A program made the translations under genes and the position numbers. A stretch of DNA of 36,520 nucleotides from the IMG/VR virus record IMGVR_UViG_3300008266_000206, positions 1 to 36,520 of that record, one strand, 5' to 3'. The DNA comes from a virus. The notes beneath the pieces are model-generated. The model searched no databases and was not told the origin of the DNA. It was given only the letters and a program-made list of their open reading frames with translations. Positions within the stretch are counted from its first letter, which is position 1; every line of letters begins with the position of its first letter. Positions 3,397-36,520 of this stretch are shown in pieces.

Positions 3397-3954
3397 ATGA
3401 ACGCGCGAAACCTTATAACGGCCATATACGTTTCGAACGAAGTAAAAGAAGTACTGCAGCGCCTAGAACCTGCAGACCTTCGCGACGATATAAAGCAGCA
3501 TGTTTTTACCGAACTGCTAGTAATGGAAGAAGGTTTTATAGTTGATCTACATACCCGCGGTAAGCTAAAGCATTTTATTGTAAAAATGCTTTACAATACT
3601 TCGAAATGGCGCGACCGTTCGGCGTTTAAAAAACAGTACGGCTTTTTAGAAACTTCGGTAGAAGACTTCGAAAGAACCGCGGCAAATGAAGACGATATAG
3701 ACGAAGACGGTAAATTGTATTTTAGTACAGTAGTTACCGGTAGTATCGAAAATAACGAACGTAGCCAGAAAGAACTAGTAGAAGAAATACTACTGGCGCT
3801 TAAAAATATGTACTGGTATAAGGCCGAAGTATTTAAATTATACGTACGCCTGGGTACATACCAGAAAGTAGCAGACGCGACCGGTATAAATTTGTCTTCG
3901 ATCTTTCAAACAGTACGGCAGGCTAAAAATGAAATTAAAACCCATATAAAATAA
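3397..3954 (+). CDS. Sigma-factor-like HTH protein
   Basis: A 185-residue protein. Its C-terminal part (about 140-185) reads as a sigma region 4-like helix-turn-helix: KAEVFKLYVRLGTYQKVADATGINLSSIFQTVRQAKNEI has the layout of an ECF/sigma-70 recognition helix pair. The N-terminal half is helical and charged and could be a region 2-like part, but I see no firm motif there. I chose ATG 3397 over the TTG at 3391 because the latter lies inside the -7 promoter element. It sits alone behind a promoter at the border between replication genes and the terminase/structural operon, which suits a regulator of late transcription. That role is inference; a plain HTH DNA-binding protein is the alternative. 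Confidence 0.65.
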   Translation: MNARNLITAIYVSNEVKEVLQRLEPADLRDDIKQHVFTELLVMEEGFIVDLHTRGKLKHFIVKMLYNTSKWRDRSAFKKQYGFLETSVEDFERTAANEDDIDEDGKLYFSTVVTGSIENNERSQKELVEEILLALKNMYWYKAEVFKLYVRLGTYQKVADATGINLSSIFQTVRQAKNEIKTHIK

Positions 3955-3955
3955 T

Positions 3956-4255
3956 ATGAAAAAGCAAACAACTACAACCGCCGAAAAGCTGGTATTTTTA
4001 AACGACCAGCTATTCTTAAAAGAACGCGTAGACAATAGCGTAGACGTACACCCGTCTACCGCGGTTATCGAACAGTTCGAAAACCTGGCGCTAACGATCA
4101 GCCCTAAAAACGATTTTAGCTGGCGCGGGTGCCAGTCATGCGTAAACCACGTAGTAAAGTTCGTTTACGATAATCTGGGCCGCCTGGGCCTGGGCCTGGC
4201 AGAAGGTAAGATCGTAGAAGTAAAAAAAGCTACGGGTTTAAAAAACGATAATTAA
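3956..4255 (+). CDS. Hypothetical protein with a CxxC motif
   Basis: A 99-residue soluble protein of unknown function, starting two bases after the previous stop. The middle contains WRGCQSCVNHVVKFVYDN, with one CxxC pair and a His that could bind metal or form a disulfide. The protein ends in a lysine-rich tail. Its position between the sigma-like gene and the small terminase, with only 5 bases to the next start, places it in the same operon. I do not recognise a family. Confidence 0.7.
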   Translation: MKKQTTTTAEKLVFLNDQLFLKERVDNSVDVHPSTAVIEQFENLALTISPKNDFSWRGCQSCVNHVVKFVYDNLGRLGLGLAEGKIVEVKKATGLKNDN

Positions 4256-4260
4256 AAACT

Positions 4261-4710
4261 ATGGGCGTACATAAGAAAATAGAAGACCCAGAAATACTAT
4301 GGCAGCACTTTTTAGACTACGTAGATAAGGTAAAAGAAAAACCCATGCTGGTACATGACTTCGTCGGTAAAGACGGCGACAGCGTATACCGTAAAAAAGA
4401 AAAGCCGTTAACCTTTGTAGGTTTTCAGAACTACTTAGACGACATGGGCGTAATTTCGGACGTTACCGACTATTTCGAAAATAAAGAAGGGCGCTACGGG
4501 CTTTTCGTCCGTATCTGTTCGCGTATAAAGCGAACGATAGCCGAAGACCAGATAACCGGCGGCATGGTCGGCGTATATAATACTTCGATAACGCAGCGCC
4601 TAAACGGCCTGGTAGATAAAAGCGAAGTAGCGGTAAAGACCGAACAACCTTTATTTCCAGACGCGCCGGCGAAGCCGCCAGCCGAAGAAGACGAAGACGA
4701 TTTTATGTAA
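4261..4710 (+). CDS. Terminase small subunit (gp3-like)
   Basis: A 149-residue DNA-recognition subunit of the packaging motor. The pattern LWQHFLDYVDKVKEKP, then a mid-protein FENKEGRYGLF and the long helix ICSRIKRTIAEDQITGGMVGVYN followed by TQRLNGLVDKSEV matches the P22 gp3-like small terminase family that is common in Bacteroidota phages. It lies three small genes upstream of the large terminase. The C-terminus, EEDEDDFM, is an acidic tail ending in an aromatic residue, shared with the SSB-like protein at 29896 and the protein at 15188; this is unusual for a small terminase. Confidence 0.82.
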   Translation: MGVHKKIEDPEILWQHFLDYVDKVKEKPMLVHDFVGKDGDSVYRKKEKPLTFVGFQNYLDDMGVISDVTDYFENKEGRYGLFVRICSRIKRTIAEDQITGGMVGVYNTSITQRLNGLVDKSEVAVKTEQPLFPDAPAKPPAEEDEDDFM

Positions 4711-4784
4711 ATACCTGGGCGGTATGGTCGGGTAAAAAAAAGACCATTAAAGCTGGCATAGGGCAGCGCCGCTATTTTAAATTT

Positions 4785-4877
4785 ATGACGCCTAATAAAA
4801 TGGAAAACATAAGCATAGTTATATTCTGCGTAGTTACGATACTATCTACGCTAGCGGTTATTTTATGTACTTTATGA
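4785..4877 (+). CDS. Small single-span membrane protein
   Basis: A 30-residue ORF starting MTPNKMENIS and continuing into one hydrophobic segment (IVIFCVVTILSTLAVILC). It follows an ATTTATG-type leader, and its TGA overlaps the next start (ATGA), which supports translation. An open frame also extends upstream of the ATG to near 4710 but lacks an ATG. Function unknown. Confidence 0.5.
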   Translation: MTPNKMENISIVIFCVVTILSTLAVILCTL

Positions 4878-4999
4878 TAAGCATATACAACTATAAGACC
4901 GGCCAGTACGAACAGATCAGTACTGAAACTATGGGCTACCTTCTTATATATTTTTATAGCCAGTATTTTACAGAACCTATCTACATAAACTTAAACTAA
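4874..4999 (+). CDS. Small hypothetical protein
   Basis: A 41-residue, tyrosine-rich ORF (MISIYNYKTGQYEQ...) coupled by an ATGA overlap to the preceding micro-gene and followed five bases later by the next. The composition is mildly hydrophobic in the middle (GYLLIYFYSQYF). It is supported mainly by the tight spacing. Family unknown. Confidence 0.45.
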   Translation: MISIYNYKTGQYEQISTETMGYLLIYFYSQYFTEPIYINLN

Positions 5000-5004
5000 A
5001 AGAC

Positions 5005-5181
5005 ATGCACGAATTTATAGAACAGTTTTTACGCTGGTACTTCTGGGCCTTTATATTTATAACGATAGCCCAGACGATCTTTTCGGTACGACTAAAGGCC
5101 AAAGGTATGAAGCTAAAAGACCAGGGCTTTTTAGAACTTACCGTAGCTACTACCTTATTTTTACTTTCAATATTTTATTAA
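5005..5181 (+). CDS. Small two-span membrane protein
   Basis: A 58-residue protein with two hydrophobic segments (about 12-28, WYFWAFIFITIAQTIF, and about 44-57, LTVATTLFLLSIF) separated by a basic loop RLKAKGMKLKDQ. The TAA stop abuts the ATG of the large terminase, so it is expressed with it. Two-span proteins of this size can be holins or antiholins, but a holin is already present at 23885. Role unknown. Confidence 0.6.
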   Translation: MHEFIEQFLRWYFWAFIFITIAQTIFSVRLKAKGMKLKDQGFLELTVATTLFLLSIFY

Positions 5182-6516
5182 ATGGCGTTCGTACGTACTA
5201 CGGCCATAAATAAAATACTAGCTATGCGCGCCCGAAAAAAGGTAGTGCAGGGTTCTACGTCTGCAGGTAAGACGTACGGCATAGTACCGATACTAATAGA
5301 TAAGGCCTGCAAAATACCCAGGCTGCGTATAACGATCGTAGCCGAAACTATACCGGCCGTTAAAGACGGGCCGGTACGTATTTTTAAGAACGTTATGTAC
5401 GATACGGGCCGCTGGGTAGAAGACCGCTGGCTAGGCAACCCGCTACAGTATACTTTTAAAAACGGTTCTGTTATAGAATTTAGGGCGTTCGATAGCGTAG
5501 GCAAAGCGAAGGTAGCCGACAAACGCGACGTACTGTATATGGTCGAATGCAATAACATAACGTACGAAATAGCTAGCGCCTTAATGATAAGAAGTAAAGA
5601 AGTTTATATGTGCTTTAACCCAGAAGCCGAATTCTGGGCGCATACCGAAGTACTAACAGAACCGAACAGCGAACTACTGCTACTAACGTATAAAGATAAC
5701 GAAGCCTGCCCAGCCGAAACGATCGAAGACCTGGTTATAAAAATGAAGAAGGCGTACTACGACCCAGAAGGCGACGCCGACGACCCGAAGAACGTAAAGA
5801 ACGCGTACTGGGCGAACTGGTGCAAAGTTTATATTTTCGGCCAGCTGGGTATACTGCAGGGCGTAGTATACGAAAACTGGGCCCAGGTACCCGAACTACC
5901 GAAAGACCCGAAGACCGGTAAAATACTGGCCGAACTTATAGCCAGCGGGCTAGACTTCGGGTTCGTAAAGCCGGCGGCTATGTTAGACGTATACATGTAC
6001 CGCGGCGAACTATACGTAGACGAACGCATATATAAAACCGGTTTATCGAACGCGGCACTAGTAGACGAATTTAAACGCCTGGGCGTTAACAAAGGTACCT
6101 GCATAGTAGCCGATAGCGCAGAACCGAAAAGTATAGCCGACCTGCAGAACGCGGGCTACTATATCGAAGAAGCCGAAAAAGGCCCAGACAGCATACGCGC
6201 CGGTATTAAGATACTGCAGCAATATAAAATAAACGTTACGCAGCGATCTTTAAACCTTATAAAAGAACTGCGCCGGTACAAATGGGCGAAGAAGAAAAGC
6301 GGCGAAGAACTGGAAATACCGGTTAAATTTCTAGACCACTTACTAGACGCGCTGCGCTACGTAGCGCTGAATAAACTTTCACTATTTACGCCGTCTGGCG
6401 AATATTCGTTTATAGGTGGCAGCGAAGAAGAAGACCAGTTTTTACCGGACGCTACGCCAGAAAATATAGACGACGTTAACGACCGCTATAGCTTTGCCGG
6501 CGGCGACGAAGACTAA
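5182..6516 (+). CDS. terL: Terminase large subunit
   Basis: A 444-residue ATPase-nuclease of the DNA packaging motor. The Walker A is QGSTSAGKT (residues 23-31), and the Walker B region is VLYMVE with the catalytic Glu at about 122. The C-terminal RNase H-like nuclease shows the expected acidic residues in GLDFGF (D258), VADSAEPKSI (D311) and HLLDALRY (D389). The length and domain order are normal for phage-type Terminase_3/6 families. It is preceded by the small terminase and three micro-genes. The C-terminus is acidic (GGDED). Confidence 0.95.
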   Translation: MAFVRTTAINKILAMRARKKVVQGSTSAGKTYGIVPILIDKACKIPRLRITIVAETIPAVKDGPVRIFKNVMYDTGRWVEDRWLGNPLQYTFKNGSVIEFRAFDSVGKAKVADKRDVLYMVECNNITYEIASALMIRSKEVYMCFNPEAEFWAHTEVLTEPNSELLLLTYKDNEACPAETIEDLVIKMKKAYYDPEGDADDPKNVKNAYWANWCKVYIFGQLGILQGVVYENWAQVPELPKDPKTGKILAELIASGLDFGFVKPAAMLDVYMYRGELYVDERIYKTGLSNAALVDEFKRLGVNKGTCIVADSAEPKSIADLQNAGYYIEEAEKGPDSIRAGIKILQQYKINVTQRSLNLIKELRRYKWAKKKSGEELEIPVKFLDHLLDALRYVALNKLSLFTPSGEYSFIGGSEEEDQFLPDATPENIDDVNDRYSFAGGDED

Positions 6517-14483: not shown

Positions 14484-15140
14484 ATGAAAAAATTAGATAA
14501 AAAGGCCGTAGTAGCCAGCATAAAAAAACTGATCTTTACCGAAGACCTGCCCATGTCCGACGCTACCGAATACACCCTACAAGACGGTACGAAATGTACT
14601 ATTGATAAAATGGAAGTAGGCGGCGCAGTTATGATAGCTGGCGTAGCCGCGGTAGACGGCGTATACACCTTAGAAGACGGTACCGCTATTACAGTAGTAG
14701 CCGGCCTTATTTCTGAAATAACCGCCGCAGCCGTAGAACCTACCGAACCTACCGAACCTACCGAAATGTCTACGCCCGAACAAATGCAGGCCGCTATAAA
14801 TAAATTTGCAGACGAAGCCGCAGCCGGTAAAACGCCAGACCTGGCGAAAATGGCCGTAGTTTTAAAAGCCGTTTTCGAATATACGTTCGGCTGGCAACTG
14901 CGCGAAGCGTCCGAAAAAGCTACCCGCGAAGCCGCCATAGCTACATACCAAAGCGGTTTTAAAGCGCTGGGCGAAAAAGTTAAAAGCACTAACGAAGCGA
15001 ATAAATTACTACTGGGCCTACTGGAAGAATTTATGGACGGCGAAACCGAAAAACCTACCGAAGTTACGCTACCAGAAAACTTCGAAAGTTTAACGCCGCT
15101 GGAGAAGCGCAGGGCTTTTAGGGCAGCGACTACAGCGTAG
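14484..15140 (+). CDS. Candidate capsid scaffold protein
   Basis: A 218-residue acidic, Ala/Glu-rich protein. The first 85 residues have a small beta domain (TLQDGTKCTIDKMEVGG, TLEDGTAITVVAG). A linker of three Pro-Thr-Glu repeats (EPTEPTEPTE, from tandem 9-base repeats near 14743) leads to a helical C-terminal half. Position between protease and capsid, low complexity and helical content fit a scaffold that the protease removes. I do not recognise the family. The leader contains AAAAGGA, one of the few Shine-Dalgarno-like sequences here. Confidence 0.6.
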   Translation: MKKLDKKAVVASIKKLIFTEDLPMSDATEYTLQDGTKCTIDKMEVGGAVMIAGVAAVDGVYTLEDGTAITVVAGLISEITAAAVEPTEPTEPTEMSTPEQMQAAINKFADEAAAGKTPDLAKMAVVLKAVFEYTFGWQLREASEKATREAAIATYQSGFKALGEKVKSTNEANKLLLGLLEEFMDGETEKPTEVTLPENFESLTPLEKRRAFRAATTA

Positions 15141-15187: not shown

Positions 15188-15655
15188 ATGAGTGCAAAGA
15201 ATACCAGCGACTATACCTTCGCCCCGCATACACCAGTACACGAAATAATCGGCTACCACGTAGACGAATCGCGCCAGGGTAAAGACGCGGGTATATTGGT
15301 GCATGGTATTAAACTGGTTAAAGGCCTGGCCGTATTCGGCCCGCAAGCTGGCGTAATTACCGAAGACGATCTAACGCCGGCTATAGTAGACTTCATAATG
15401 TCGAAGAAGAACGAAGACGGTAGCAAAATGTACGAAAGCTACCTGGTAAGAAAAGACGGTAAGAAGGTAACGCCGACAAAGGTAACGCCGCCAGTAGCTA
15501 CAGACGTAGCGGCCTTATTTAACGGGCCAGACGGTAAACCGTTAAAAGGTAAAGCCCTGATCGAAGCTAAAGCAAAAGCCGCAGAAGAAGCCGCAAAGAT
15601 CAAGCCGGCCGACGCTGCAGAAGGCGCCGAAAAGAAAGACGAAGACTTTATGTAA
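15188..15655 (+). CDS. Head-region hypothetical protein with DEDFM tail
   Basis: A 155-residue protein between scaffold and capsid. The first 90 residues are a mixed alpha/beta domain (HTPVHEIIGYHVDES...). Residues 95-155 are a low-complexity Ala/Lys/Glu segment that ends KKDEDFM, nearly the same acidic-Phe-Met C-terminus as in the small terminase and the SSB-like protein. It could be a head completion or decoration protein, or a scaffold partner. Unknown family. Confidence 0.6.
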   Translation: MSAKNTSDYTFAPHTPVHEIIGYHVDESRQGKDAGILVHGIKLVKGLAVFGPQAGVITEDDLTPAIVDFIMSKKNEDGSKMYESYLVRKDGKKVTPTKVTPPVATDVAALFNGPDGKPLKGKALIEAKAKAAEEAAKIKPADAAEGAEKKDEDFM

Positions 15656-15723: not shown

Positions 15724-16743
15724 ATGGCAATAAGTTTAACTGCAGCAAGTTCTAGCGCCGCCGGCAAACAGTACGAACCAATACTGGAAGAACTGCTATT
15801 CGAAAATAAAACCGTAGGCGAACAGCTGGTAGCGTTCGAAGACGACGTTAAGGCGTCTACCGAAATTACCGAAGTAAGCGCGACCGTAGCTATGCAGGCG
15901 TATACTTCTGGCGTACCTTCGTCTTCGGGTTCGTTAACTTCTGCCGGTACTGCTATTACACCGGTTAAAGTTATGTACTACCAGGAATTCGACCCCAATA
16001 CTTTAAGGCCCAGCCGTTATGGTCTGTCTATGAAGAAGGGCGCCTGGGAAACCGCTAGTACCGAATTCGAACGCGTAGTACTGGGTTTATACGGCCGTAA
16101 AATTTCATACGATACCGAAGCTAAATGGTGGAATAACGCATTAAGCGCCACGAAAGTTTCTGTAGCCGCATTGACGCCAGGCGTAGGCCAGGGTAGCGTA
16201 GGCGCAGCAGAACAAACATACGTAGCGTCTTTAACTGCCGGCCAGTTCGACGGTATTATAACCCGCATTATTTATAACGGCGGCGCCCTGGGTACCCGTA
16301 TTAAAGTAGCCGGTACCACTATTACTTCTACAAATATAAAAGCTGAATACGATAAAGTATACGCCGCTATACCTGCAGTAGTTCTGGCCGACAAAAGCGA
16401 ACGCCCGCGTATCTATGCACCCTACAGCCATATACAACTTATTAACCAGTTTAATAACGTAGCGACTAACTACAAAGACGTATTCATAGTTACCGACCTG
16501 GGCAAACCAGAACAGAAGGTATATTTTTACGGTATCGAAGTAGTATTCGTACCGTCGCCCGAAAACTGCATAGTAGCCGCGAAGCCCAGCCACTTACTTT
16601 GGGCTACTGATCTACTGGCCGACGTTAATAAAATGGAAATTAACAAGATAGCGAACAACCGCGACGACATGTTCGTAAAGCATGTTTATACGATTTTCGC
16701 GCATGTTATGAACCAGGCGTACAACGTTTTGTACCTGGGCTAA
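15724..16743 (+). CDS. Major capsid protein
   Basis: A 339-residue protein that fits an HK97-fold capsid protein in size and place. An N-terminal helical arm (EPILEELLFENKTVGEQL) is followed by a long mixed domain with a central helix and the C-terminal strand/helix core (FYGIEVVFVPSP..., MFVKHVYTIFAHVMNQAYNVLYL). It follows the protease and scaffold candidates, has the typical Bacteroidota leader AAAATTATGGCA, and is followed by a strong hairpin terminator, consistent with very high expression. The fold is inferred; identity is well supported by context. Confidence 0.8.
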   Translation: MAISLTAASSSAAGKQYEPILEELLFENKTVGEQLVAFEDDVKASTEITEVSATVAMQAYTSGVPSSSGSLTSAGTAITPVKVMYYQEFDPNTLRPSRYGLSMKKGAWETASTEFERVVLGLYGRKISYDTEAKWWNNALSATKVSVAALTPGVGQGSVGAAEQTYVASLTAGQFDGIITRIIYNGGALGTRIKVAGTTITSTNIKAEYDKVYAAIPAVVLADKSERPRIYAPYSHIQLINQFNNVATNYKDVFIVTDLGKPEQKVYFYGIEVVFVPSPENCIVAAKPSHLLWATDLLADVNKMEINKIANNRDDMFVKHVYTIFAHVMNQAYNVLYLG

Positions 16744-28691: not shown

Positions 28692-29870
28692 ATGGGTACC
28701 GGCCACGCATTTTTAAGCCCGTCTGGCGCTAGTATCTGGTTGAACTGTACACCTGCAGCCAGGCTAGCCGAACCGTTCGCAGATACCGCTGGCAGGGCTG
28801 CAGACGAAGGTACGCTGGCCCATAGGCTAGGCGAACTATTTTTACGGTATCGTACTGGTAAGATCACTAAAAAAGTCTACCAGAAAGACTTAAAAGAAAT
28901 ACAAGCCGACGAACTGTACGAAGCGTCTATGTATGAGTACTGCGATAACTACGCCGTATTCGTACTGGAAAAGTACGCCGAAGCCCAGGCGGTAAGTAAA
29001 GACGCACTATTAGTTTTAGAACAGCTGTACGACCTTACCGCGTTTATACCGGACGGGTTCGGTACCGGCGACGCTACGACTATCGGCGACGGCGTACTAA
29101 CTATCGTAGACCTAAAGTACGGTAAAGGCGTACCGGTATCGGCGGTAGAAAATAAGCAGCTACGACTATACGCCCTGGGCGCGTTACTGGCCTACGGTTT
29201 TATATTCGACATACATACCGTACGTATGTTTATCTACCAGCCGCGCTTAGAAAGCGTAACGGTAGACGAAATGGCCGCCGACGATCTACTAGCCTGGGCA
29301 GAAAACGAAGTAAAGGTTAAAGCGCTTATGGCCTTTAATGGCGAAGGCGACTTCGTACCTGGTACCCATTGTAGGTTCTGCAAAGCTGCAGGTATGTGCA
29401 AAGCAAATGCCGCGTATAACTTAGAACTAGCCCGCCACGAATTTAAAAGCGCGCAGCTGCTAAACGATACCGACATAAGCGAAATACTGCAGCGTACCGG
29501 CCTATTTACTACCTGGCTAAAAGCCGTTAACGACCACGCGTTTAACGAAGCGCTAAAGGGTAAAAAGTGGCCTGGGTTTAAACTGGTAGCCGGTAGAAGT
29601 AACCGTAAAATAGCCGACGAAAAGCTAGTAGCTGCGCGACTACTTAGCGACGGTCTAGAAGAAAGCGACATTTATAAAAAAGAACTTCTGGGCCTAACAG
29701 CGCTAGAAGGTTTACTAGGCGAAAAAACCGTAAAACTTTTACTGGGCGACCTAATCACTAAACCCGAAGGCAAACCGACGCTGGTAGAAGCTACCGACAA
29801 ACGCGAAGAACTAAATACCCTGGCGGCTGCGGTAGATGAATTCAAACATTTGATCGAACAAGACTTTTAA
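28692..29870 (+). CDS. DUF2800 RecB/Cas4-like nuclease
   Basis: A 392-residue PD-(D/E)XK exonuclease-like protein. The family start SPSGASIWLNCTPAARL is followed by DEGTLAHRLGE (motif I His), TIVDLKYGKG (the DLK core) and NKQLRLYALG (motif with Gln/Tyr). Cys19 together with Cys227, Cys230 and Cys236 (HCRFCKAAGMC) gives the four-cysteine pattern of Fe-S cluster RecB/Cas4 nucleases. It is encoded directly before the DUF2815 SSB-like gene, as in many phages. Likely a 5'-3' exonuclease or end processor in recombination-dependent replication. Confidence 0.9.
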   Translation: MGTGHAFLSPSGASIWLNCTPAARLAEPFADTAGRAADEGTLAHRLGELFLRYRTGKITKKVYQKDLKEIQADELYEASMYEYCDNYAVFVLEKYAEAQAVSKDALLVLEQLYDLTAFIPDGFGTGDATTIGDGVLTIVDLKYGKGVPVSAVENKQLRLYALGALLAYGFIFDIHTVRMFIYQPRLESVTVDEMAADDLLAWAENEVKVKALMAFNGEGDFVPGTHCRFCKAAGMCKANAAYNLELARHEFKSAQLLNDTDISEILQRTGLFTTWLKAVNDHAFNEALKGKKWPGFKLVAGRSNRKIADEKLVAARLLSDGLEESDIYKKELLGLTALEGLLGEKTVKLLLGDLITKPEGKPTLVEATDKREELNTLAAAVDEFKHLIEQDF

Positions 29871-29895: not shown

Positions 29896-30477
29896 ATGGA
29901 AAACAAAGAAAAGAACGCCGCCAGGTTTATAACCGGCCCAGCGCGTTTAGGGTATGCGAAGTTATGGGTACCCGAAGCTATGGAAGAAGGCCAGGAAAAA
30001 AAATACGGCGCCGTAGTTATGATACCGAAAACCGACAAAGCGACCGTTAAACTTTTACTGGCCGCATACGAAGCCGCGAAAGAGCAGGGCCAGGCTAAAT
30101 TCGGTAAGAAGTGGAATGTAGATAAATTAAAAAACTACGCGCTAAAAGACGGCGACGTAGACTACCCAGAAAAGCCCGAATGCGAAGGCATGTACTGTAT
30201 AAGTGCAAAGAACGCAAAGCAGCCCGAAATGATCTACCGTAACGGTAAAGCTATTACAGATAAAGACGAAATGTATAGCGGCGTATGGGCGTACGTTAGT
30301 TTAACGTTCTACGGCTACGAAAAAGGCGGCGGCGGTATCGGCTGCATGCTGAATAATTTAATGAAGGCTAAAGACGACGAAGCGTTCAGCGGGCAGACTT
30401 CTGCGGCCGACGACTTCGCCGACATAATAGACGTAGACGCCCAGGACGATAAACCGGACGAAGACGACTTTATGTAA
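29896..30477 (+). CDS. DUF2815 single-strand DNA-binding protein
   Basis: A 193-residue OB-fold-like ssDNA-binding protein (DUF2815). Signatures include RFITGPARLGYAKLWVPEAM near the start, KKYGAVVMIPKTDKAT, and YSGVWAYVSLTFYGYEKGGGGIGCMLNNLMK. The acidic C-terminus ends KPDEDDFM, like the partner-binding tip of bacterial SSB and T7 gp2.5. This tail is shared with the small terminase and the protein at 15188. Coats ssDNA and likely recruits polymerase, exonuclease or primase. Confidence 0.88.
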   Translation: MENKEKNAARFITGPARLGYAKLWVPEAMEEGQEKKYGAVVMIPKTDKATVKLLLAAYEAAKEQGQAKFGKKWNVDKLKNYALKDGDVDYPEKPECEGMYCISAKNAKQPEMIYRNGKAITDKDEMYSGVWAYVSLTFYGYEKGGGGIGCMLNNLMKAKDDEAFSGQTSAADDFADIIDVDAQDDKPDEDDFM

Positions 30478-31246: not shown

Positions 31247-33358
31247 ATGCGCGAACTAAACATAGATATAGAAACCTACAGCGAAACGAACTTAAAAACG
31301 TCTGGCGTTTATAAGTACGTCGAAGACCCGACGTTTACTATACTACTGTTCGCCTACGCCTTCGACGGCGAAGAAAAAATAAAAATAATCGAACCCGAAA
31401 ATATGCTAAATAGCGGCGACGAATTCGACGCAGAACAACTGGCCGAAGTTCGCGCCTGGCTACTAGACCCTACAATAATAAAAACAGCCCATAACGCAGC
31501 GTTCGAAAGAACCTGCCTGGCTAAGTTCTTTAACATAACGTTAGACCCGTCGCTATGGTCTTGTACTATGGTTCGGGCAGCTATGCTGGGCCTGCCGTTA
31601 TCTTTAGACTTCGCAGCTAAAGCGCTAAACATACCGCAGCAAAAACTAGCGACCGGCAAAGCGTTAATAAAGTATTTTTGTACACCCTGCAAACCGACGG
31701 CTAAAAACGATATGCGTAGCCGTAACATGTCATACCACGCGCCCGAAAAATGGGCCGAATTTAAAACGTACTGCGTAGCAGACGTAGCAGCCGAACGCGG
31801 CATACGTAGACGCGTAGTACCGTTCGGCATAATACCGGTAGAAGTGGCGCTATGGAATCTAGACCAGAAAATAAACGATACGGGCCTACTAGTAGACGAA
31901 GTATTGATCGAAGGCGCTATCGAAATGGACGACATAAACCGCCGGCAGCTTATAGCCGAAGCGATCGAAATAACCGGCGTAGAAAACCCGAACAGCGCCG
32001 TACAGTTACGTAACTGGCTGGCGAACCATAAAGACCTAGACGTAGGCCTAGATACGCTACGTAAAGACGATCTACCCGTAATACGTAAAGCCGCTGCAGG
32101 TACATTAAACGAAGAACAGATCGTACGCGTACTGGATATTCGCGCCGAAATATCTAAAAGCAGTATAAAGAAGTACACGTCTTTAAATAACTACCGCTGC
32201 GCCGACGGGCGGGTACGCGGTCTACTACAGTACTACGCAGCAAACCGTACGGGCCGATGGGGTGGCCGCGGCGTACAGCCGCATAATTTAAGAAAGAATA
32301 ATTTAAAAGACCTAGAACTAGCGCGTAACCTGGTACGCCTGGGCGACATAGAAGCTATTAACCTGGCCTTCGGTTCGGTAAGCGAAATACTTAGCCAGTT
32401 AATACGTACCGCGTTTATTTCTGCGCCAGGCTGCAGGTTTATACCTGCCGACTTTTCGGCTATCGAAGCTAGGGTAATTAGCTGGCTGGCCGGCGAAAAC
32501 TGGCGGCTAGAAGTTTTTAAAACGCATGGCAAAATATACGAAGCGTCCGCGGCGCAAATGTTTAAAGTACCGCTGGATAGTATAAGCTATACCGACGCTG
32601 CAGGTAAGACGGTTAAAGGCCCGAATTTCGATATGCGTAGTAAAGGTAAGGTAGCAGAACTAGCGCTGGGTTTTCAAGGCGGCACCGCTGCCCTGGTCGC
32701 TATGGGCGCTTTAAAAATGGGTATTGTAGACGCTGCAGTAGAACGCGGTAAAGCGTACTACGATACGGGCGCTAAAGTAGAAACCTGGGCCGAATACAAA
32801 GAAGAAGTAATAACCGCAGAACTGCAGAAGCTAGTAGACGCCTGGCGCGAAGCGAACCCGAATATAAAGAAGCTATGGCGTACGGTAGGCGACGCCGCTA
32901 TAAAGGCGGTAGAAACCGGCCTGGCCGTTACTATACAGTTCGGTATACGTTTCGTCGTAGAAAAAAATATACTGTTTGTTACGCTGCCCAGTAAACGCCG
33001 GCTAGCATACATACGGCCGGTACTGCGCCCAGGTAAGTACGGCCAGGTACTTTGGTACGAAGGTCTAGACGATACAAAGCGCTGGACGCGTATACCTACC
33101 TACGGCGGTAAGCTGGTAGAAAACCTGGTACAAGCTATAGCCCGCGACTGCATGGCCGACGCTATGTTAAGGGTAGACGCTGCAGGCTACAGTATCGTAC
33201 TACATGTACACGACGAAATTATACCCGAAGTACCGGCGTTTAGTACTGGCAGCGTAGACGATCTAAATAAAATAATGTCGCAGCCGATAGCCTGGGCGCC
33301 TGGGCTACCTTTAAACGCAGACAGCTACGAAACCTTATACTATAAAAAAGACGATTAA
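31247..33358 (+). CDS. DNA polymerase, family A
   Basis: A 703-residue phage PolA-type polymerase with a 3'-5' exonuclease domain. Exo I is NIDIETYSE (residues 5-13), and the middle has the DEDD-type nuclease residues (CTMVRAAMLG..., YCVADVAAERGI). Polymerase motif A is PADFSAIEARVISWLAGE (Asp near 401), motif B RSKGKVAELALGFQGG (around 464) and motif C LHVHDEI (around 651). Synthesises phage DNA with the AEP primase-helicase and SSB. The large antisense frame opposite it is a shadow. Confidence 0.95.
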   Translation: MRELNIDIETYSETNLKTSGVYKYVEDPTFTILLFAYAFDGEEKIKIIEPENMLNSGDEFDAEQLAEVRAWLLDPTIIKTAHNAAFERTCLAKFFNITLDPSLWSCTMVRAAMLGLPLSLDFAAKALNIPQQKLATGKALIKYFCTPCKPTAKNDMRSRNMSYHAPEKWAEFKTYCVADVAAERGIRRRVVPFGIIPVEVALWNLDQKINDTGLLVDEVLIEGAIEMDDINRRQLIAEAIEITGVENPNSAVQLRNWLANHKDLDVGLDTLRKDDLPVIRKAAAGTLNEEQIVRVLDIRAEISKSSIKKYTSLNNYRCADGRVRGLLQYYAANRTGRWGGRGVQPHNLRKNNLKDLELARNLVRLGDIEAINLAFGSVSEILSQLIRTAFISAPGCRFIPADFSAIEARVISWLAGENWRLEVFKTHGKIYEASAAQMFKVPLDSISYTDAAGKTVKGPNFDMRSKGKVAELALGFQGGTAALVAMGALKMGIVDAAVERGKAYYDTGAKVETWAEYKEEVITAELQKLVDAWREANPNIKKLWRTVGDAAIKAVETGLAVTIQFGIRFVVEKNILFVTLPSKRRLAYIRPVLRPGKYGQVLWYEGLDDTKRWTRIPTYGGKLVENLVQAIARDCMADAMLRVDAAGYSIVLHVHDEIIPEVPAFSTGSVDDLNKIMSQPIAWAPGLPLNADSYETLYYKKDD

Positions 33359-35368: not shown

Positions 35369-36520
35369 ATGCCCGAAAAAATTTACGACGGCGAACTAGA
35401 TATAGCCGTAGGCAAAAGCCGAAAAGAAACGAACTGGCGTAACAAAAGCTGGCTATGGTCTACCCTGGTAGATAAGCTAAAGACTACGCATTATACCGCC
35501 GAAACGCATACCGAATACATGCAGGCGAAGAAGACGCGCCAGGATGAAATAAAAGACATAGGCGGTTTCGTCGGCGGGTACCTGCAGGGCGGCCGCAGAA
35601 AGTCTACTAACGTTTTACACCGGCAACTAATTACGCTGGATATAGATTTTAGTACCGCCGATTTTTGGTTCGATTTTACCTGCGTATATGGCTGCGCTGC
35701 GGTATTGTATTCTACGCATAAACACGCGCCAGAAACGCCCAGGCTGCGACTACTGATACCTTTAGACCGGCCAGTACGCCCAGACGAATACGAAGCCATA
35801 GCCCGCTACATAGCTGGCGAAATAGATATAGAAGTATTCGACCCGACTACCTTCCAGCCCGAACGTTTAATGTACTGGCCCAGCACTTCGAAAGACGGTA
35901 CATACTTATACGAAGTACAAGACGGCCCGTTCGTCTGCGCCGACGACATACTAGCCCGTTATCATAACTGGCAAGATAGTAGCGCCTGGCCCGTTAGCGA
36001 ACGCGTAGATAAGGTACTACGTCGCGACATGGTAAAGCAGGGCGACCCGTTAGAAAAAGGCGGCGTAATAGGCGCGTACTGCAGAACGCATACGATACAC
36101 GAAGTAATAGAAAAACACCTGGCCGACGTATACGAACCCTGCGACATAGAAGACCGGTATACGTACCTGCAGGGTAGTACCGCTGCAGGCCTTATAACCT
36201 ACGACGATAAGTTCGCGTATTCGCATCATGGCAGCGACCCTATAAGCGGTAAACTTTGCAACGCCTTCGACCTGGTACGTATACATAAATTCGGGCTAAA
36301 GGATGAAGACGCCCGCGAAAACACGCCCAGCAATAAGCTACCGTCTTATTTAGCTATGACAGAATACGCAGTAAAAGACGCCGACGTACGGCTACTACTA
36401 ACGAACGAACGTATAGCCGAAGCCCGCGGCGAATTCGCAGGCCTGATCGTAACCGATAACGAAAACCAGGACGAAGCCGCCGACGTCGCGGCCGACGAAG
36501 AACCAGGCGAAGACTGGAAA
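35369..36520 (+). CDS. AEP-type primase half of primase-helicase (N-terminal part)
   Basis: The first 384 codons of an 832-residue primase-helicase that continues at base 115 of the window. The archaeo-eukaryotic primase signature is visible: ITLDIDF (Asp91 and Asp93), YSTHKH (the S-x-H motif at 115-117), PRLRLLIPL, and FDPTTFQPERLMYWPS with Asp158. It synthesises primers for PolA, while the C-terminal VirE helicase opens the fork. The ATG at 35369 follows an A/T-rich leader. The acidic linker (about 365-384) joins the two halves. Confidence 0.85.
   Translation, partial: MPEKIYDGELDIAVGKSRKETNWRNKSWLWSTLVDKLKTTHYTAETHTEYMQAKKTRQDEIKDIGGFVGGYLQGGRRKSTNVLHRQLITLDIDFSTADFWFDFTCVYGCAAVLYSTHKHAPETPRLRLLIPLDRPVRPDEYEAIARYIAGEIDIEVFDPTTFQPERLMYWPSTSKDGTYLYEVQDGPFVCADDILARYHNWQDSSAWPVSERVDKVLRRDMVKQGDPLEKGGVIGAYCRTHTIHEVIEKHLADVYEPCDIEDRYTYLQGSTAAGLITYDDKFAYSHHGSDPISGKLCNAFDLVRIHKFGLKDEDARENTPSNKLPSYLAMTEYAVKDADVRLLLTNERIAEARGEFAGLIVTDNENQDEAADVAADEEPGEDWK
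36407..36520. repeat. Terminal direct repeat, right copy (circular overlap)
   Basis: Exact copy of 1-114. Removing one copy gives a circle of 36,406 bp and restores a single 832-codon primase-helicase frame that runs 35369-36520 and then continues from base 115 to 1461. Confidence 0.95.

Follow-up and report, generated by a model that had tools for sequence, protein, structure and literature searches.

Three acidic tails in one phage genome

The window analysed here is the whole of a viral record of 36,520 bases (36.5 kb, 44 genes), which carries identical 114-nt direct repeats at 1-114 and 36407-36520 and, from these end repeats, is probably a complete circular assembly. Three of its proteins end in an acidic run followed by Phe-Met: the small terminase (TerS), a protein encoded in the head region and a single-stranded DNA-binding protein (SSB) of the Enc34 type (Table 1). 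A sequence-only reading of this DNA had reported such ends on these three proteins, and the translations of the open reading frames together with the DNA confirmed each of them. All three end in FM and not in F, and so do not have the acidic run with C-terminal Phe of the bacterial SSB tip. A search of the whole window found TTTATGTAA at the three tail sites only.

Table 1. Positions of the three tails, their genes and related features (window coordinates, except for the last two rows)
Feature	Position	Strand	Remarks
Small terminase TerS	4261-4710	+	Pfam GP3_package / phrog_606; related to P22 gp3 (PDB 3P9A)
EQPLFPD, ancestral TerS C-terminus	4642-4662	+	From homologue comparison
Added 15-residue TerS tail APAKPPAEEDEDDFM with stop	4663-4710	+	From homologue comparison; predicted disordered
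TerS C-terminus EEDEDDFM with stop	4684-4710	+	DNA GACGAAGACGATTTTATGTAA
TerL, large terminase	5182-6516	+	Expected TerS partner via EQPLFPD
Scaffold-like gene	14484-15140		Downstream of XkdF-type protease gene
Head-region protein	15188-15655	+	Between scaffold-like gene and capsid gene
Head-region protein tail KKDEDFM with stop	15632-15655	+	DNA GACGAAGACTTTATGTAA
Gene called the capsid gene here	15724-16743		phrog_11320; annotated structural protein in Cellulophaga phage phi46:1
DUF2800 PD-(D/E)XK nuclease, SSB neighbour	28692-29870	+	C-terminus HLIEQDF; weak candidate for a fourth tip
Enc34-type (DUF2815, T7 gp2.5-like) SSB	29896-30477	+	PF10991, E=4.6e-49
SSB acidic tip KPDEDDFM with stop	30451-30477	+	DNA GACGAAGACGACTTTATGTAA; family-typical SSB tail
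Phage DNA polymerase (family A, PolA)	31247-33358	+	Candidate tail receptor by analogy with T7
Record L413, Enc34-type SSB	3409-3978	-	Same gene in L424
Record L413, DUF2800 nuclease beside that SSB	4015-5622	-	Same gene in L424

Two of the carriers could be assigned by profile. TerS matched PF16677 above the cut-off (E=5.6e-8) in the profile search and PDB 3P9A (E=1.7e-5) in a profile comparison, which, together with its position upstream of TerL, identifies it as a small terminase like P22 gp3. The SSB matched PF10991 over its OB-fold domain (residues 11-183) as well as phrog_112, with 4JG2 (E=4e-33), 4KLK and 5ODJ as the closest solved structures; it is a clear member of the Enc34 ORF6/DUF2815 family, with a disordered acidic C-terminus, and its end, ...DDKPDEDDFM, has the acidic tail and hydrophobic tip of the Enc34 type.

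For the head-region protein no family match was found. Its reading frame is supported as coding by a codon adaptation of 0.71, against 0.61 and 0.52 in the other frames, and its structure was predicted with low confidence (pLDDT 52). Related phages carry a gene for 57-70 aa in the same pre-capsid position, mostly with Lys-rich ends, and none of these counterparts has the DFM tail. Residues ~42-82 of the window protein weakly resemble this small protein and are flanked by N- and C-terminal extensions; because hhalign gives a weak match to this family of pre-capsid proteins (probability 5%, E 0.008), homology rests mainly on the position and on an FGP...LTxxI motif. In one related record (L075 6871-7998), a single reading frame joins the protease/scaffold-like protein, at its C-terminus, to the small pre-capsid protein, which suggests that the two work together.

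Origin of the terminase, head and SSB tails

In the TerS family, 18 homologues, all from phages whose capsid gene is related, stop at EQPLFPD, EQPLFPEN or nearby, and the window protein runs on with APAKPPAEEDEDDFM exactly where homologues stop at EQPLFPD. The acidic-FM tip was present in none of 81 distinct C-termini of TerS homologues, a set that adds 80 viral loci, 11 genome loci and further prophages to these 18. By this comparison, the TerS tail is a new and clean addition of 15 residues after the ancestral C-terminus. A motif EQx[LF]F was then compared across the window site and the TerS homologues in L096-L113 and L297-L401, and it ended TerS in 29 of 39 cases with a window-type TerL as neighbour and in 0 of 18 without (p = 4e-8). 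Because the motif occurs only beside this type of TerL, and because TerL of P22 has been seen attached at the C-terminus of TerS (PMC11728703), EQPLFPD is probably a TerL-docking peptide. The added tail lies just past it, probably free for another role. The AlphaFold2 model is confident over roughly the first 100 residues of TerS, and residues 115-149, tail included, are mostly below pLDDT 50; the tail is thus predicted to be disordered.

Co-conservation of the three tails in related phages, which had been put forward as one test of a shared partner, fails: the 81 TerS C-termini and the head-protein counterparts lack the tail, and no second genome with a TerS or head tag turned up among 74 relatives by capsid gene, more than 100 by TerS and ~80 by SSB. 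Conservation of the tail among the homologues of each carrier, as expected of a T7-type arrangement, was accordingly absent for both TerS and the head protein. Among the relatives, a close TerS homologue (~54% identity) and a DUF2815 SSB were found together only in a Chitinophaga prophage and the viral record that corresponds to it (L377/G083), where TerS ends in ASGAGSE, with no tip. Among 44 searched contigs with a related capsid gene, a DUF2815 SSB was detectable in none, though most of these contigs are fragments and absence from them is not proof; the tags are found in a phage that carries such an SSB, unlike its nearest head-module kin. Since TerS homologues and head counterparts lack the tail, and since the untagged Chitinophaga prophage has both a TerS homologue and a DUF2815 SSB, the two tags are, as far as these comparisons reach, a lineage-specific addition seen in one genome and not a conserved three-way system.

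The tail of the SSB has a different history. About 80 SSB relatives have acidic tails, and most of their tips consist of an acidic run and F or L, often followed by L or M (DDFLG, DEDFLS, DDDLM, DEDDFM and similar). Judged from these relatives, the acidic-hydrophobic tip is old and standard for the family, irrespective of its presence on other proteins. Set against Enc34 ORF6 and the other DUF2815 proteins (PF10991; PDB 5ODJ, 4JG2, 4KLK), the window SSB is itself ordinary, and the oddity is that TerS and the head-region protein bear its tip. Crystals of T7 gp2.5, Enc34 ORF6 and two further DUF2815 proteins show the C-termini placed within the concave sheet of adjacent SSBs (PMC5686142). The same report implicates the gp2.5 tail in contacts with polymerase and helicase, and work cited there describes the T7 tail as competing with ssDNA for one surface.

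One alternative is that each acidic tail serves a local purpose, such as auto-inhibition of DNA binding in TerS, a charge tag inside the prohead or ssDNA selectivity in the SSB, and that the shared FM ending reflects coincidence or weak convergence with no common partner. Several observations fit it: some TerS homologues bear other short acidic extensions past EQPLF (NDDEDEEIDE, DVEENDSDQQDSEAEEA); the Enc34 SSB gained dsDNA binding once its tail was removed (PMC5686142), so that such tails have their own roles in relation to DNA; and the tags are known from one genome only. This explanation has to be weighed against how seldom such endings occur.

Rarity of the shared ending

Among ~3,775 distinct non-SSB genes of the fetched phage contigs, none ended in [DE][DE]FM and one in DFM; the single DEDDFM entry listed in this set is an SSB that slipped past the filter. 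The window phage has two non-SSB proteins with a [DE][DE]FM ending. When the last six residues were scored against the window SSB tip with BLOSUM62, TerS reached 34 and the head-region protein 20, compared with a background maximum of 18 among 1,772 genes of 32 other DUF2815 phages. The window therefore shows the T7-like pattern of a similar acidic tail on the SSB and on other proteins of one phage.

The same picture emerged when 2.9 million viral contigs were scanned: DEDDFM followed by a stop was found in 10 of them, in nine cases on an Enc34-type SSB. A wider scan of these contigs for [DE][DE]DFM-TAA returned 64. Pooling both scans gave 35 ORFs of at least 60 aa that end in [DE][DE]DFM, of which 30 are Enc34-type SSBs and five are others (L412, L421, L431, L464 and L013, two of them short and doubtful); no terminase was among the 35. 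In three of the five records (L421, L431 and L013), a PF10991 SSB was undetectable. The ending is close to a signature of SSBs. With the caveat that the likeness was noticed first and tested afterwards, the shared tails are a confirmed observation, and the case that they exceed chance is statistically strong. The absence of the ending from ~3,775 non-SSB genes, and its occurrence on only five non-SSB ORFs in 2.9 million contigs, argue against separate local purposes, since two such endings in a 44-gene genome with an FM-tipped SSB would be hard to get independently; we consider that explanation rather unlikely.

A second alternative is that the tails of TerS and of the head-region protein were copied by recombination from the 3' end of the SSB gene and are recent and neutral. 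At the DNA level, a single mismatch in 21 bases separates the TerS and SSB tails and the head tail matches except that it lacks one codon, and the lack of tails in homologues would also agree with recent copying. However, GAA makes up 98% of the Glu codons in the window, and codon bias alone predicts at least four of five wobble agreements with P = 0.46, so the likeness of the tail DNA is uninformative on common descent. Moreover, the likeness to the SSB gene does not extend into the flanking DNA, the linkers and the sequences after the stops differ, and a single selected event is more probable than two independent neutral ones. Neutral copying seems improbable on these grounds.

It is also conceivable that the signal lies in the nucleic acid and not in the peptide, with GACGAAGAC..TTTATGTAA acting as a stop-codon context or RNA element at the three gene ends. 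The confinement of TTTATGTAA to the tail sites and the presence of CCTGGGC after two of the three stops speak for this. On the other side, no Rfam match was found, the SSB copy has no downstream match, and other phages encode the same peptide by other codons and with other downstream DNA, which leaves this explanation with very little likelihood. As an RNA or DNA element in its own right, the downstream CCTGGGC was rejected, being a general word of this genome with 50 copies in the window (1.8 expected).

A possible docking role and its parallels

The sequence-only reading had proposed that, because acidic tips of the SSB type recruit partners, the three proteins may share or compete for one partner and thereby link replication, packaging and head assembly. 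What stands of this is that the tail is of the SSB type and is shared beyond chance by replication, packaging and head-region proteins; the idea of a co-conserved system does not stand, and a common partner of the three tails, or competition for such a putative partner, is plausible. The reading we prefer, at a probability of roughly 0.5, is that the tails of TerS and of the head-region protein copy or mimic the SSB tip of their own phage and dock where the SSB tail docks. Points against it are that the TerS and head tags are seen in one genome only, that the Chitinophaga prophage with a TerS homologue and a DUF2815 SSB has no tag, and that tip sharing is not significant over the other DUF2815 phages as a whole. 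By analogy, we infer that the tails would dock onto the receptor of the SSB tail and that packaging may benefit from this docking.

Under this copied-tip reading, the disordered tails of TerS and of the head protein would dock on the surface used by the SSB tail, for which there are two candidates: the groove in which the phage's own SSB binds ssDNA, and basic patches on the phage PolA, by analogy with gp2.5 and gp4 of T7. TerS rings, with perhaps nine tags each, might be recruited in this way to replicating or SSB-coated concatemers, which would help packaging to start beside the replication fork, and the tag of the pre-capsid protein could bring proheads, or the pre-capsid protein, to the same fork site. 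The tip imitated would be that of the phage SSB and not of the host SSB, because host SSBs end in F and the phage tip has M after F. Mimicry of the host SSB was considered and rejected as the main idea: host-family tips (DDLPF, DDALF) end in F, and a sample of 395 genomes of the class to which Chitinophaga belongs contained no DEDDFM with a stop. A more ambitious version, in which the tip is a transferable docking tag by which terminase rings and proheads assemble on SSB or PolA at the fork, with packaging coupled to replication and regulated by competition, is possible but doubtful.

A close parallel is T7, where gp2.5 is an SSB of the same fold class with an acidic tail and hydrophobic end, and a second phage protein, gp4, has a like tail. 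The gp4 acidic tails attach to basic patches on the gp5 DNA polymerase (PMC12593628), and the gp4 tail can use the same receptor as the gp2.5 tail, namely gp5; in the window the receptor is a candidate. Unlike in T7, where the sharers are replisome proteins, they are here a small terminase and a head-region protein, and the tip ends in FM. Shared acidic tails of the T7 style are thus already known, and what is new is a set of carriers, in one genome, that would tie packaging to replication. The bacterial SSB tip (DDLPF/DDIPF type) is likewise an acidic run with a hydrophobic C-terminus that serves as a docking peptide, but the window tips have Met after Phe, and the canonical partners of the host SSB may not accept tips that end in Met.

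A packaging enzyme that contacts an SSB has a precedent in T4, whose terminase interacts with the SSB gp32 and with gp55 (PMC3012670, PMC9026906); gp17 is linked there to gp32, gp55 and gp45, that is, to the SSB and clamp-linked factors. The T4 partner is the large terminase, whereas in the window it would be the small terminase, acting through a proposed copied SSB tip. In the literature searched, no shared SSB-like tail has been described for the T4 terminase, and no link between a terminase and an SSB tip was found. Beyond T4, the reading bears on how a phage terminase locates the replicating DNA of its own phage and on the timing of the change from replication to packaging. If a copied SSB tip recruits TerS, this change would depend on a short peptide open to deletion or exchange, and so to direct testing. 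SSB tips might then be portable addresses in phage genomes, and the idea could be exploited by seeking unrelated proteins that end in the SSB tip of their own phage.

A second case of tip sharing was seen in L413 and L424, which represent one lineage. Their DUF2800 nuclease has a C-terminal extension ending in SKQAPKAAEVNIDDFM (IDDFM), and the adjacent SSB ends in DGDEDFM; no third FM-tipped protein was seen in the 52-kb record of this lineage. As in the window, a second protein has an FM tip after a Pro/Ala/Lys linker in a phage with an FM-tipped Enc34-type SSB, but the carrier is a replication/recombination nuclease that adjoins the SSB gene and not a packaging protein. By its sequence, this nuclease is an independent analogue of the tip sharing in the window.

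Similar pairs were noticed in other DUF2815 phages. A primase-helicase (L183 5831-8125, minus strand; G087) ends in GEDFLD beside an SSB ending in GDDFLD. In G085, the primase-helicase ends in DDEDI, a neighbouring gene (L180 3333-3923) in DDEDL and the SSB of the same phage in DEDEDL. The C-termini of two further primase-helicases (L147 16161-18623, G069; L181 5183-7456, minus strand) resemble the SSB tip of their own phage, and the same listing holds the carrier/SSB tip pairs DDEEL/DDEDL and GDDFMS/DEDFLG. The likeness is suggestive for some primase-helicases, but we do not claim general tip sharing within genomes across DUF2815 phages, as a permutation test with the window excluded gave p = 0.12.

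Two further features of the window concern its word usage and a repeat region. CCCGG/CCGGG (46 expected) and CAGTG/CACTG (19 expected) are absent from it, as are the palindromes TGGCCA, AGATCT, AAGCTT and TGCGCA, a pattern that looks like restriction-site avoidance. Repeats of TACTACAGTAACTACAGTAA lie at 1451-1470 and 1534-1558, with a perfect 25-nt inverted copy at 1653-1677; this stretch (1451-1677), at and past the end of a VapE-like primase gene, folds strongly (z = -5), and the repeats are possibly origin iterons or an operator.
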